Positions 58,770-64,000 of a DNA stretch of 64,000 nucleotides are shown one piece after another (position 1 is the first letter of the stretch; the number at the start of each line of letters is the position of its first letter). Both the position numbers and the translations under genes were made by a program. The notes under the pieces are model-generated. The model was not told where the DNA came from, made no database searches, and was given only the letters and a program-made list of their open reading frames with translations. This DNA is from Nitrosococcus watsonii C-113 (GTDB lineage: Bacteria > Pseudomonadota > Gammaproteobacteria > Nitrosococcales > Nitrosococcaceae). The stretch lies in the NCBI RefSeq assembly GCF_000143085.1, contig NC_014315.1:991001-1055000 (forward strand), written 5' to 3'.

Positions 58770-60812
58770 ATGAACAACCAAGTTAACCCCACTTCTTTTC
58801 CCGTTCCGTGTCGCCCTGATTCCACGGTGAAATTCTCCGCCGCTGTGCCTCGCACCGTGGCGCTGCGGCCTTTGGCGGTGGCCCTTCGCCGGGTGCTGGG
58901 CGGAGGGTTGCTGGCGGCGGGCCTGATGGGTCCGGCCCTGGGGCAAAGCCTGGGCACGGTCTTGAGCCCGGCTCAGGTCCCCAATCAGAGCAAGAGCCTG
59001 GATCTATCCACTCTGGATGGCAGCAATGGTTTTACGCTCAACGGTATTGCAGTTGGTGATCGCTCGGGCTGGTCAGTGAGCGGAGCGGGGGATGTGAATG
59101 GGGACGGGATCGATGACTTTCTGATTGGTGCACCTTATGCCGACCCCAATGGCGCTGGCCAAAGCTACGTGGTGTTTGGAACCAACGGAGGGTTTCCTGC
59201 GGCGCTGGATCTCTCTGCCCTGGATGGGAGCAATGGCTTTATGATCAACGGCATTGCGGCCGGTGATAGCTCGGGCTCCTCGGTGAGCGGCGCGGGGGAT
59301 GTGAATGGGGATGGGATTGATGACCTGGTGATTGGCGCACCCTGGGCCGACCCCGGCGGGCGCGATAATGCGGGCCAGAGCTACGTGGTATTTGGGAACA
59401 GCGCGGGCCTTCCCGCGACAGTGGAGTTGTCTGCCCTGAATGGCAGCAATGGTTTTGCGCTCAACGGTATTGCGGTTGATGATCGCTCGGGCTGGTCGGT
59501 GAGTGGTGCGGGGGATGTCAATGGCGATGGGGTCGATGACATCATCCTCGGCGCGCCCAATGCCGACCTCAATAGTGTTGATAGAGCAGGCCAGAGTTAC
59601 GTGGTATTTGGGACCAACGGAGGGTTTCCCGCGGCGCTGGAATTGTCCGCTTTGGATGGCGGCAATGGCTTTATGATCAACGGTATTGCGGTTGATGATC
59701 ACTCGGGCCGGTCGGTGAGCGGGGCGGAGGATGTCAATGGCGATGGGGTCGATGACATCATCCTCGGCGCGCCCGGCACTAGCTGGAGCTACGTAGTGTT
59801 TGGCACGAGCACGGGGTTTCCCGCCGTGCTGGAGCTTTCCGATCTGGATGGCGACAATGGCTTTGTGCTCAACGGCATTGAAGTCTATGACTTCTCAGTT
59901 CTCTCGGTGAGCGGGGCGGGGGATGTCAATGGCGATGGGATCGATGACATCGTGATTGGCCAAGCCGGTTTCAGCGGCTATTCAGGCCTGAGTTACGTAG
60001 TGTTTGGGACGAATGCGGGATTTCCTGCGGCGGTGGATCTCTCCGCTCTGGATGGCAGTAACGGCTTTGTGCTTGGCAGCACGCTCACCGGTTCCCGTAC
60101 GGGCTTTTCGGTGAGCGGTGCGGGGGATGTGAATGGGGACGGGTTCGATGATCTTCTGGTTGGCGCCCCCGGTACTTACCCCTTTGAAGGCGACTCGCTG
60201 GGTTATAGCTACGTGGTATTTGGAGCGAGTACCTTTCCCTCGGCAATACTTCTCCCCTATGATTTGGATGGTAGCAACGGCTTTATCATCAACGGCACTG
60301 AGCTCGGTGACCGTTTGGGCCACTCGGTAGGTGGAGTGGGTGATGTCAATGGCGATGGGGTCGATGACATCATCCTCGGCGCACCTAGCGCCAGCCCCAA
60401 CGGCGAGAATTCGGGCCAAAGCTACGTAGTATTTGGGACACCCTCGGTCGGTGGTCCGGCGGTTTTGCTCAAGGGGCTGATTGCCGAGGTGGAAGCGCTA
60501 GATCTGCCGGCAGGGCTTGAACACTGGCTGGCTAGGCCGCTTAAAAGGGCCGAGAAGAAGCTGGATGAGGGCGAGGTGGCCAAGGCGCTCTACAAGGTGG
60601 TGGGGTTTATCCAGCGGGCGAGGGTGCTGCGGCAATACGGGATACTGCCGGCGGACGAAGCCAACGCCCTCATTGCCCAAGCCAAGACTATCATCAAGGC
60701 GCTGCTGGACTTGCCGGAGCTCTCGCGTGTTGCCGCCACGGATCTTCTTCCCGCCGACCTGATCCCCAGTGACGGGCCGGTACCGGCAGGTCCTCCTGCC
60801 ACTACTCAATAG
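58770..60812 (+). CDS. Secreted FG-GAP (integrin alpha-type) beta-propeller protein, copy 1 (680 aa)
   Basis: Unusually long N-region (about 40 residues) before a signal-like stretch ALRRVLGGGLLAAGLMGPALG with cleavage likely after GQ (about residue 59). Then seven FG-GAP repeats of roughly 65-75 residues, each with a Ca2+ loop of the type GDVNGDGIDD followed by IGAP and a SYVVFGT strand, which should close a seven-bladed propeller. Residues about 570-655 form a helical domain (KGLIAEVEALDLPAGLEHWL ... IIKALLDLPEL, split here) resembling FIMAH. The end is Pro/Gly-rich with no anchor. SD TAGGAGA. First of three tandem paralogues. Probably secreted or periplasmic, with adhesion or surface binding inferred from the fold. 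Confidence 0.85.
   Translation: MNNQVNPTSFPVPCRPDSTVKFSAAVPRTVALRPLAVALRRVLGGGLLAAGLMGPALGQSLGTVLSPAQVPNQSKSLDLSTLDGSNGFTLNGIAVGDRSGWSVSGAGDVNGDGIDDFLIGAPYADPNGAGQSYVVFGTNGGFPAALDLSALDGSNGFMINGIAAGDSSGSSVSGAGDVNGDGIDDLVIGAPWADPGGRDNAGQSYVVFGNSAGLPATVELSALNGSNGFALNGIAVDDRSGWSVSGAGDVNGDGVDDIILGAPNADLNSVDRAGQSYVVFGTNGGFPAALELSALDGGNGFMINGIAVDDHSGRSVSGAEDVNGDGVDDIILGAPGTSWSYVVFGTSTGFPAVLELSDLDGDNGFVLNGIEVYDFSVLSVSGAGDVNGDGIDDIVIGQAGFSGYSGLSYVVFGTNAGFPAAVDLSALDGSNGFVLGSTLTGSRTGFSVSGAGDVNGDGFDDLLVGAPGTYPFEGDSLGYSYVVFGASTFPSAILLPYDLDGSNGFIINGTELGDRLGHSVGGVGDVNGDGVDDIILGAPSASPNGENSGQSYVVFGTPSVGGPAVLLKGLIAEVEALDLPAGLEHWLARPLKRAEKKLDEGEVAKALYKVVGFIQRARVLRQYGILPADEANALIAQAKTIIKALLDLPELSRVAATDLLPADLIPSDGPVPAGPPATTQ
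60452..60812 (+). repeat. C-terminal (FIMAH-like) DNA block, copy 1
   Basis: About 360 nt encoding the last 120 residues of the first FG-GAP protein. It is repeated with few mismatches at 62470-62830, an offset of 2018 nt. The identity is much higher than in the blade regions between, suggesting recent duplication or gene conversion. Confidence 0.8.
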
Positions 60813-60823
60813 GAGACACTACC

Positions 60824-62830
60824 ATGCACGATAATAAAGCTACTTTTACTTCTTGTTCCGTTTCAAGCCGCTCTGATTCACAGAGCTCTACTCATCCACC
60901 TCGTGCCCTTGCGCCGCGGCCTTTGGCGGTGGCGCTTCGCCGGGTGCTGGGTGGAGGGTTGCTGGCGGCGGGGTTGATGGGTCCGGCCCTGGGGCAAAGC
61001 CCGGGCCCGGACTTAAGCCCGGCTCCGGCCCCGAGTCAGAGCAAAAGCTTGGATTTGTCCACCCTGGATGGGAGCAACGGCTTTACCATTAATGGTAGAG
61101 GCTCCTCGGTGAGTGGGGCGGGAGATGTGAATGGAGACGGGTTCAATGATATTGTGATTGGCGCATCCAGCGCTAGCCCCAATGGCGAGAATTCGGGCCA
61201 GAGCTACGTGGTGTTTGGAACCAATGGAGGGTTTCCCTCGACGCTGGAACTCTCCGCTCTGGATGGCAGCAATGGCTTTATCATCAACGGCATTGCAGCC
61301 GGTGACTACTCGGGCATCTCGGTGAGCGGGGCAGGGGATGTGAATGGGGACGGGTTCGATGACCTGGTGATTGGCGCGCCTAGCGCCAGCCCCAACATCG
61401 ACCATTCAGGCCAGAGCTACGTGGTGTTTGGAACCAATGGAGGGTTTCCCTCGACGCTGGAACTCTCCGCTCTGGATGGCAGCAATGGCTTTATGATCAA
61501 TGGCATTGCGGCCGGCGACTCCTCGGGTTCCTCGGTGAGTGGGGCGGGAGATGTGAATGGAGACGGGTTCGATGATATTGTGATTGGCGCGTATGGCGCC
61601 CGACTCGATAGTGATCAATCGGGCCAGAGCTACCTGGTGTTTGGGGCCAGCGGGGGTTTTCCCGCAGTGGTGGAACTGTCCGCCCTGGATGACAGCAACG
61701 GCTTTATCATCAACAACATCGGGCGCTATGATTATTCAGCTCTGTCGGTAAGCGGCGCGGGGGATGTGGATAACGATGGGTTTGGTGATGTCCTTATCGG
61801 CATACGCAATTTAGTTGGCGACGGAGGGGTAGATGTGGGCGGCGGAACCTACGTGATATTTGGAGGCAGTAGTGGATTCGGTAACGTAGTCCTCATCGAT
61901 CCATCCTATTATCCTGACGATATTTTAGTGAGTGGGGCGGGGGATGTAAATGGGGATGGAGTCGATGACTTTGTGATTGGTGCGCCTGGCGTCCCTCCTT
62001 ACAGCTCCTATTCGGGCCGGAGCTATGTGGTATTTGGGACAAGTGGGGGTGGCTTGCCGACGGATCTCTCCACCCTCGATGGGAGTAATGGCTTTACCAT
62101 CGATGGTATTCCGATTAATCCCAGCAGCGGCGCGGTATGGTCGTCGGTGAGTGGTGCGGGAGATGTGAACGGGGACGGGCTCGATGACATTTTGATTGGC
62201 GCGCCTGGCGCTAGCCCCAACGGCACATGGTCGGGCCAGAGTTATGTGGTGTTTGGGACGGATGGGGGGTTTCCCGCGGCGCTGGATCTCTCTGCCCTGG
62301 ATGGCAGTAACGGTTTTATCATGAATGGTATTGCGGCCGGTGACTCTTTGGGTGATTCGGTGAGTGGGGTGGGAGATGTGAATGGAGATGGAGTCGATGA
62401 CTTTCTGATTAATGCGCCTGGTGCCGGCGATTCAGGCCAGAGCTACGTAGTGTTTGGGGTGGCCTCGGGGGGACCAGCGGTTTTGCTCAAGGGACTGGTT
62501 GCCGAGGTGGAAGCGCTAGATCTGCCGGCGGGGCTTGAACACTGGCTGGCCAGGCCGCTTAAAAGGGCCGAGAAGAAGCTGGCCCAGGGCGAGGTAGCCA
62601 AGGCGCTCTACAAGGTGGTGGGTTTTATCCAGCGGGCGAGGGTGCTGCGGCAATACGGGATACTGCCGGCGGCCGAGGCCAACGCTCTGATTGCCCAGGC
62701 CAAGACTATTATCAAGGCGCTGCTGGACTTGCCGGAGCTCTCGGGCGTTGCCGCCGCGGATCGTCTTCCCGCCGACCTGATCCCCAGTGACGGGCTGGTA
62801 CCGGCAGGACCTCCCGCCGCCACCCGGTAG
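60824..62830 (+). CDS. Secreted FG-GAP beta-propeller protein, copy 2 (668 aa)
   Basis: Same plan as copy 1: 40-residue Ser/Thr-rich N-region, Arg39-Arg40 before the hydrophobic LGGGLLAAGLMGPALGQ stretch, seven FG-GAP blades and the FIMAH-like C-terminal domain, nearly identical to that of copy 1. Blade 1 is shortened (NGRGSSVSG in place of the longer loop) and blade 4 is divergent (GDVDNDGFGDV), with a shorter blade 5. It begins 11 nt after copy 1 and its SD (TAGGAG) overlaps the previous stop codon. Blade loops differ more between copies than the end domains do. Confidence 0.85.
   Translation: MHDNKATFTSCSVSSRSDSQSSTHPPRALAPRPLAVALRRVLGGGLLAAGLMGPALGQSPGPDLSPAPAPSQSKSLDLSTLDGSNGFTINGRGSSVSGAGDVNGDGFNDIVIGASSASPNGENSGQSYVVFGTNGGFPSTLELSALDGSNGFIINGIAAGDYSGISVSGAGDVNGDGFDDLVIGAPSASPNIDHSGQSYVVFGTNGGFPSTLELSALDGSNGFMINGIAAGDSSGSSVSGAGDVNGDGFDDIVIGAYGARLDSDQSGQSYLVFGASGGFPAVVELSALDDSNGFIINNIGRYDYSALSVSGAGDVDNDGFGDVLIGIRNLVGDGGVDVGGGTYVIFGGSSGFGNVVLIDPSYYPDDILVSGAGDVNGDGVDDFVIGAPGVPPYSSYSGRSYVVFGTSGGGLPTDLSTLDGSNGFTIDGIPINPSSGAVWSSVSGAGDVNGDGLDDILIGAPGASPNGTWSGQSYVVFGTDGGFPAALDLSALDGSNGFIMNGIAAGDSLGDSVSGVGDVNGDGVDDFLINAPGAGDSGQSYVVFGVASGGPAVLLKGLVAEVEALDLPAGLEHWLARPLKRAEKKLAQGEVAKALYKVVGFIQRARVLRQYGILPAAEANALIAQAKTIIKALLDLPELSGVAAADRLPADLIPSDGLVPAGPPAATR
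62470..62830 (+). repeat. C-terminal (FIMAH-like) DNA block, copy 2
   Basis: Second copy of the block at 60452-60812, at the end of the second FG-GAP gene. Differences include Ala-Gln for Asp-Glu after KKL and a few synonymous changes. Confidence 0.8.
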
Positions 62831-62841
62831 GAGAAATTTCC

Positions 62842-64000
62842 ATGAACGATAACAAAGCTACTTTTACTTCTCGTCCCGTTTCAAGCCGCTCTGATTCACA
62901 GATCTCTACTCATCCACCTCGCGCCCTTGCGCCGCGGCCTTTGGCGGTGGCGCTTCGCCGGGTGCTGGGTGGAGGGTTGTTGGCGGCGGGCCTGATGAAC
63001 CCGGCCCTGGGGCAGAGCCTAAGCCTGGAGCTTTCCGATCTGGATGGCAGCAACGGCTTTGCACTCAATGGCATCGGACCCGGTGATTCCTTGGGCGATT
63101 CGGTGAGTGGTGCGGGGGATATGAACGGCGATGGGTTCGATGATCTGGTGATTGGCGCACCCGATGCCAGCCCCAACGGTGTTAGCGGAGCAGGCCAGAG
63201 CTATGTGGTGTTCGGGACCAGCGGGAGATTTCCCGCAAGTCTGGATCTGTCCACTTTGGATGGTGGTAACGGTTTTATCGTCAACGGCATCGCGGCCTTT
63301 GATGGCTCGGGCCGGTCGGTGAGTGGTGCGGGGGATATAAACGGCGATGGATTTGATGATCTGGTGATTGGCGCGCCTGATGCCAGTCCCGACGGTGTTA
63401 GCGGAGCGGGCCAGAGCTATGTGGTGTTTGGGACTAGCGGCGGTTTTCCCGTAAGTCTGGATCTGTCCACTTTGGATGGCGGCAATGGCTTTATCATCAA
63501 TGGCGTTGCGGCTGCTGATCACTCGGGCCGCTCGGTAAGCGGAGCGGGAGATGTGAACGGCGACGGGTTTGATGACCTGGTAATTGGCGCGCCCAGCGCC
63601 GACCCCAATGGTAGCCGTTCGGGCCAGAGCTACGTGGTGTTTGGGACGAATACGGGCTTTCCAGCCGCGCTAGAACTCACCGCCCTGGATGGAAGTAACG
63701 GCTTTGCGCTCAATGGTATCGCGGCCTTTGACGGTTCAGGCTGGTCAGTGAGCGGAGCGGGGGATGTGAACGGCGATGGGTTTGATGACCTGGTGATTGG
63801 CGCGCCTGCTGCCGGCTCCCCCTTTGCTCCTCCCTTTCGTCCCCATGGCAGCGGTTCGGGCCAGAGCTATGTAGTGTTTGGGACGGGCGGGGGTTTTCCC
63901 GCAGCAGTGGAGTTATCCGCCCTGGATGGGAGTAATGGTTTTTCGCTCAACGGCATCGCGGCCTATGATAACGCAGGCTCTTCGGTGAGCGGCGCGGGGG
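62842..64000 (+). CDS. Secreted FG-GAP beta-propeller protein, copy 3 (partial, runs off window)
   Basis: Open from ATG 62842 to the window end without stop (386 codons). N-terminus nearly identical to copy 2 (MNDNKATFTS, then the LRRVLGGGLLAAG signal with LMNPALG), followed directly by propeller blades. Four complete Ca2+ loops (GDMNGDGFDD, GDINGDGFDD, GDVNGDGFDD twice) and the start of a fifth are present. Blade 4 has a Pro-rich loop insertion (SPFAPPFRPHG). SD TAGGAGA, stop of copy 2 in the same bases, 11-nt spacing. The FIMAH-like domain is expected beyond the window. Confidence 0.8.
   Translation, partial: MNDNKATFTSRPVSSRSDSQISTHPPRALAPRPLAVALRRVLGGGLLAAGLMNPALGQSLSLELSDLDGSNGFALNGIGPGDSLGDSVSGAGDMNGDGFDDLVIGAPDASPNGVSGAGQSYVVFGTSGRFPASLDLSTLDGGNGFIVNGIAAFDGSGRSVSGAGDINGDGFDDLVIGAPDASPDGVSGAGQSYVVFGTSGGFPVSLDLSTLDGGNGFIINGVAAADHSGRSVSGAGDVNGDGFDDLVIGAPSADPNGSRSGQSYVVFGTNTGFPAALELTALDGSNGFALNGIAAFDGSGWSVSGAGDVNGDGFDDLVIGAPAAGSPFAPPFRPHGSGSGQSYVVFGTGGGFPAAVELSALDGSNGFSLNGIAAYDNAGSSVSGAG

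Follow-up and report, generated by a model that had tools for sequence, protein, structure and literature searches.

A tandem array of predicted integrin-type propeller genes in Nitrosococcus watsonii, marked by duplication, exchange and loss

We analysed a 64,000-nucleotide stretch of the chromosome of Nitrosococcus watsonii C-113, a marine ammonia oxidiser (NC_014315.1, positions 991,001 to 1,055,000; hereafter the window), whose end carries three FG-GAP propeller genes, W1 to W3. The proteins belong to an already published kind of bacterial integrin-like propeller, the array has a history of duplication, exchange and loss, and replacements among its copies are most rapid on the presumed ligand-binding face. 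Our overall reading, to which we give a probability of about 0.62, is an operon-like array of exported, Ca2+-stabilised integrin-type propellers that would present a ligand-binding face and diversify by recombination. The array is a well-resolved, mostly ordinary gene family. A preliminary description was right in its observation and in the fold, and half right in its evolutionary reading; the kind was already known.

Layout of the array and its leaders

Three successive genes in tandem had been described, and the adjacent open reading frames bear this out. Their features are as follows.

58770..60812, plus strand: W1, FG-GAP seven-bladed propeller, 680 aa (open reading frame, Pfam, seven DxNxDG loops, AlphaFold2)
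58770..58946, plus strand: putative W1 N-terminal leader, about 59 aa, with an n-region of about 40, the hydrophobic core RPLAVALRRVLGGGLLAAGL and an ALG/Q-like cleavage site
58995..60437, plus strand: W1 propeller, seven blades with one predicted Ca loop each (loops, AlphaFold2, Foldseek)
60438..60809, plus strand: W1 FIMAH-like helical tail and Pro-rich end (AlphaFold2 bundle; Pfam FIMAH E 0.0035, below cut-off)
60810..60815, plus strand: W1 stop TAG inside the TAGGAG Shine-Dalgarno-like site of W2 (printed sequence)
60824..62830, plus strand: W2, FG-GAP seven-bladed propeller, 668 aa, blades 4-5 degenerate (open reading frame, Pfam, loops)
60824..60997, plus strand: W2 leader, nearest to that of W3 (DNA identity 0.93)
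62459..62827, plus strand: FIMAH-like helical tail of W2, with 89% identity to that of W1 (alignment, Pfam FIMAH)
62828..62833, plus strand: W2 stop TAG inside the TAGGAG site of W3 (printed sequence)
62842..64000, plus strand: W3, third propeller gene, truncated at the window end (open reading frame, completed from the genome)

The W1 stop codon lies 11 bases before the W2 start, and the same overlap with TAGGAG is repeated from W2 to W3. Because each stop TAG belongs to the next gene's Shine-Dalgarno-like site, W1 to W3 are probably co-transcribed and likely form one operon-like unit.

Finished from the genome sequence past the window, W3 encodes 634 aa and ends at L001:10746. Downstream of it are a gene that we named TIGR03032-like from its sequence, another that is DUF488-like, and a V-type ATPase operon. 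Extending the locus past the window end revealed no intact fourth copy after W3 and, because other gene types follow, the array comprises three intact genes and no more. As to the suggestion that more copies might lie beyond the window, no further intact array copy exists there, and what remains is a leader stub of about 27 codons followed by TAG (L001:10808-10910, beyond the window end; AATAGGAG..ATGAACAACCAAGCTAAC...), together with a dispersed relative, W4, 425 kb from the array (about 1.477 Mb; L003:4701-6623). The stub has 83% identity to the start of W1 and 91% identity to a stub following the last array gene of a sister genome (G003, probably N. oceani), and it is the relic of a lost fourth array copy. 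W4 has seven loops and a Cys-containing C-terminal tail (GCALRG...DWIMNC) that is unlike the array tails, matched no Pfam family and is kept in the sister genome.

The sister genome has three propeller genes, A, B and C, at the same locus with the same flanks (G003:C2:2401-2407 kb). Gene A has seven loops and a helical tail, B has eight loops, and C has seven loops with two adjacent blades that are 94% identical in DNA. Blade number seven is therefore common but not fixed. This conserved array makes it highly improbable that the one in N. watsonii arose by misassembly of repeats. Repeat units some 210 bases long can be collapsed or reordered in an assembly, but the three frames are all open and distinct, the syntenic three-gene array comes from an independent genome, and the contig is the 3.3-Mb chromosome of a 3.37-Mb genome in three contigs.

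The leaders point to export. Their core, RPLAVALRRVLGGGLLA, is invariant over a leader of about 59 residues, an ALG/Q cleavage site appears plausible from the alignment by eye, and the significant leader matches within the genome are W1, W2 and W3 only. The leader is a probable Sec-like export signal, which would take W1 to W3 through the inner membrane. Arg-Arg precedes the hydrophobic core, and the Tat pathway is less likely because the single-copy relative of the sister genome has RQ rather than RR at this place. The proteins had been called secreted, and inspection of their N-termini makes that export probable. The genome encodes a T2SS pseudopilin, and we would guess at a T2SS as a possible way out of the cell. 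RTX-type C-terminal GGxGxD repeats were found in none of W1 to W4, and the genome's only HemolysinCabind matches lie at 1.40 Mb.

A seven-bladed propeller with two kinds of tail

All three proteins match the Pfam FG-GAP family (E-values of 5e-55 for W1, 8e-51 for W2 and 3e-40 for the part of W3 within the window), with seven matching stretches in W1, six in W2, where one degenerate blade is missed, and four in the in-window part of W3. Strict DxNxDG-type loops number exactly seven apiece in W1, W2 and the completed W3, spaced by about 71 residues; the earlier count of seven Ca2+-loop repeats in each of the two complete genes is exact, and it extends to the third. According to the loop scan and the strand context of an AlphaFold2 model, a DxDxDG-like loop sits at the 1-2 loop of every blade, where calcium binding is predicted; each blade would fold around one such loop. 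NCBIfam 'XAC2610-related' matches were confined to one Ca-loop blade and were taken as motif cross-hits.

The AlphaFold2 model of W1 was built from an alignment of 33 sequences from the window and from relatives' loci, and has a mean pLDDT of 82, mostly above 90 across the propeller. Its strands fall into seven repeated sets, with a short strand (76-78) ahead of blade 1 and no matching strand past blade 7. When the model was compared to the PDB with Foldseek, integrin alpha heads appeared throughout the matches listed (E-values to 1e-19 and TM-scores to 0.71 by target length), in alignments spanning 530-560 columns. A profile search of PDB sequences with the propeller likewise returned integrins only (E = 1.5e-15). 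The model thereby supports the integrin-alpha-type seven-bladed propeller that had been proposed. Closure of the ring is deduced from strand order and alignment length rather than from inspected coordinates; on that basis, the N-terminal strand apparently completes blade 7, and the modelled ring does close as far as its strand order shows.

W1 shares with the integrin alpha head (alphaV, alphaIIb, alpha5) the predicted fold, the blade motif and the placement of Ca loops on one face, but it has no thigh, calf or transmembrane parts and no beta-subunit partner, and a Ca loop is found in all seven blades of W1 to W3 compared to three or four in integrin alpha. Because blade 7 is followed in the model by no more than a helical bundle and a Pro-rich end, we call W1 integrin-like rather than an integrin.

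The tails of W1 and W2 are confidently modelled as a helical bundle; for W1, pLDDT exceeds 90 across most of the core. FIMAH (PF22888) is the best Pfam match of the helical tails (E-values of 3.5e-3 for W1, 2.2e-3 for W2 and 2.5e-4 for A), covering positions 13-80 of 81. The tails are called FIMAH-like, and are not filed as FIMAH members, because their three scores (18.3-22.0 bits) lie under the Pfam gathering cut-off (24.8 bits), even though the match is nearly full length. In a Foldseek search the tail resembles small helical bundles, including the C-terminal four-helix bundle of NnGH92 (PDB 7nsn; PMC10167667), with a probability of 1.00 and a TM-score of 0.55, but an E-value of only 0.2. 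Like FIMAH and the NnGH92 domain, the W1 tail would be a short helical bundle at the C-terminus of an exported multi-domain protein. The bundle of W1 and W2 would probably dock or attach the proteins outside the cytoplasm. A PDB sequence search with the tail returned weak matches to SK-channel calmodulin-binding helices (E-values of at least 0.23), which were set aside as helix similarity.

The expectation of FIMAH-like tails holds for W1 and W2 and fails for W3, which has in place of the domain a short tail of about 45 residues with cysteines. This tail, with its two cysteines, is common to W3, B and C, all three without the helical tail. Loss of the W3 tail by a recent frameshift was considered and rejected: there is no remnant of the helical region downstream, and the two sister-genome genes have the same Cys tail. 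A search for the FIMAH family in 143 genomes of the class and 12 relatives' genomes yielded no match above cut-off, a silence that does not show absence there. Relatives of the helical tail were found neither on plasmids nor in relatives' FG-GAP loci, and a tail profile searched against 398 genomes of the phylum gave weak matches only; those inspected lay in apparently antisense or unrelated frames and were discarded.

Exchange between copies and change on the blade faces

The preliminary description had noted that blades diverge while both ends are conserved, which is correct for W1 and W2 (identity of 0.90 in the tail and 0.67 in the blades), and had taken this pattern as a sign of diversifying selection, which the silent sites do not support. 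Between W1 and W2, dS is 0.24 in the tail compared to 0.93 in the blades; between the W2 and W3 leaders it is 0.13, and for flanking genes between the two species it is 0.19-0.47. Because their silent divergence is lower, the ends are younger than the blades, and in part they postdate the species split or are of roughly the same age as it.

The two ends also have conflicting histories. Leader trees group (W1,A) and (W2,W3,B). At the start of the tail, W1 and W2 instead pair with each other and are joined by A, with W3, B and C forming a separate group. In AU tests of seven topologies, a set of our own choosing applied to short segments, the topology that fits the leader best fails on the tail (P = 7e-10), and the one that fits the tail best fails on the leader (P = 6e-7). 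Within the propellers, W2 and A have a common degenerate blade pair despite their different leaders, and W3 and B have a common unusual FAPPF loop in non-collinear order. Since silent sites are similar too and the leader and tail trees conflict, the ends have been exchanged or homogenised by recombination or gene conversion. In the history we propose, the copies would have exchanged leaders, blades and tails or converted them to one another's sequence, some blades would have been duplicated and others lost, and entire copies would have disappeared. Gene conversion can, without positive selection, yield conserved ends and divergent middles, and such patterns should be read with this in mind.

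We next consider the blades by face, following the strand numbering used for integrins, whose ligand face is formed by the 4-1 and 2-3 loops. The overall dN/dS (w) of the blades is 0.21-0.35 in all pairs. By face, the pooled values are 0.56 [0.42-0.74] for the 4-1 and 2-3 loops, 0.12 [0.08-0.17] for the Ca face (1-2 and 3-4 loops) and 0.27 [0.22-0.34] for the strands, with intervals that are optimistic because the pooled pairs (W1-A, W2-A and W3-B) are not strictly orthologous and share genes. The Ca face is frozen; measured against silent changes, the 4-1/2-3 face evolves some four to five times faster. In the single-copy pair W4-D, the same 4-1 and 2-3 loops have a dN/dS of 0.17 [0.10-0.29]. 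Judging from relatives among integrin alpha chains and lectins and from where replacements cluster, the 4-1/2-3 face would be the likely site for binding glycans or proteins, whether on the cell surface or within the extracellular matrix.

True positive selection on the binding face of surface proteins, for example against phage or grazers, would account for the elevated loops, whose pooled ratio exceeds that of the single-copy pair and reaches 1.03 [0.62-1.69] between W3 and C. We nevertheless regard it as unlikely: no pair's interval is wholly above 1, the overall blade ratio is low, just two array-bearing genomes are compared, and conversion explains the conserved ends, silent sites being conserved as well. 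Relaxed constraint explains the loop excess as well as diversification does. Of the proposed diversifying binding face, what stands is the concentration of replacements on one face; a ratio above 1 does not. The blade-loop comparison that had been suggested gives the same divided answer, with one face elevated over the single-copy relative and every pair's interval reaching below 1.

The Ca loops themselves are the most conserved part (w of about 0.05), and the other loops stay below 1. Both facts would fit periplasmic or extracellular structural or Ca2+-buffering proteins without a specific ligand, their loops unconstrained and their copies kept by dosage, and calcium storage or signalling has been suggested for such propellers if cytoplasmic (Chouhan et al. 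2011; PMC3192720). This explanation is less likely than our main reading, since members of the propeller family mainly bind ligands (integrins, PVL and tachylectin lectins; PMC8023676), and buffering does not require replacements to concentrate on one face.

Relation to known propellers

Chouhan et al. (2011; PMC3192720) described, in five bacteria and with function unknown, seven-bladed integrin-type propellers that have a Ca site in every blade and are closed by an N-terminal strand completing blade 7. Their set includes two Nitrosococcus oceani ATCC 19707 entries, one of them Q3JAB2_NITOC, under the printed name 'Nitrococcus' (PMC3192720), and these are almost certainly orthologous proteins of the array. 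Our literature search found no paper pairing FG-GAP with Nitrosococcus, and a misspelt name would escape it. W1 to W3 agree with the published propellers in their seven FG-GAP blades, a Ca loop per blade, the N-terminal strand modelled as completing blade 7, and the genus. Absent from that account are the tandem array, the helical and Cys tails, the leader, the eight-loop copy and the recombination seen here and in the sister array. Pereira and Lupas place these propellers in the VCBS supercluster with lectins (PMC8023676) and describe blades as continually amplified (PMC9218822). With the bacterial propeller known since 2011 without a function, close copies with swappable parts offer a natural test of which face is in use.

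The RTX-tailed FG-GAP proteins of Nitrosomonas, cyanobacteria and alphaproteobacteria are 47-58% identical in the propeller and often have seven or fourteen loops. Unlike W1 and W2, with their leader and helical tail, they usually start without a signal peptide and bear the GGxGxD repeats of type I secretion. Among 68 uncut FG-GAP open reading frames at relatives' loci, GGxGxD motifs occur two or more times in 44 and a signal-like start in only 4, and the relatives therefore mostly look type-I-secreted. One propeller is in this way coupled to different export and attachment modules. A stronger reading would see a recombination-driven repertoire of integrin heads with fixed leader and tails and exchangeable blades, its face diversified for changing ligands and an ancestral RTX, type I tail replaced; we hold this to be improbable.

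Propeller arrays recur in unrelated ammonia oxidisers. Two or more propeller genes lie on the same strand in 10 of 67 loci elsewhere, with five in one Nitrosomonas contig. Three Nitrosomonas contigs (L040, L044 and L055) have runs of four to five propeller genes; many of these encode 7 or 14 loops and end in RTX-like or related C-termini. The N. watsonii genome itself encodes two more propeller proteins, of the FG-GAP_3/VCBS type (L004:4038-6122 and L005:4952-6355), and the first of these genes adjoins sulfotransferase-like genes.
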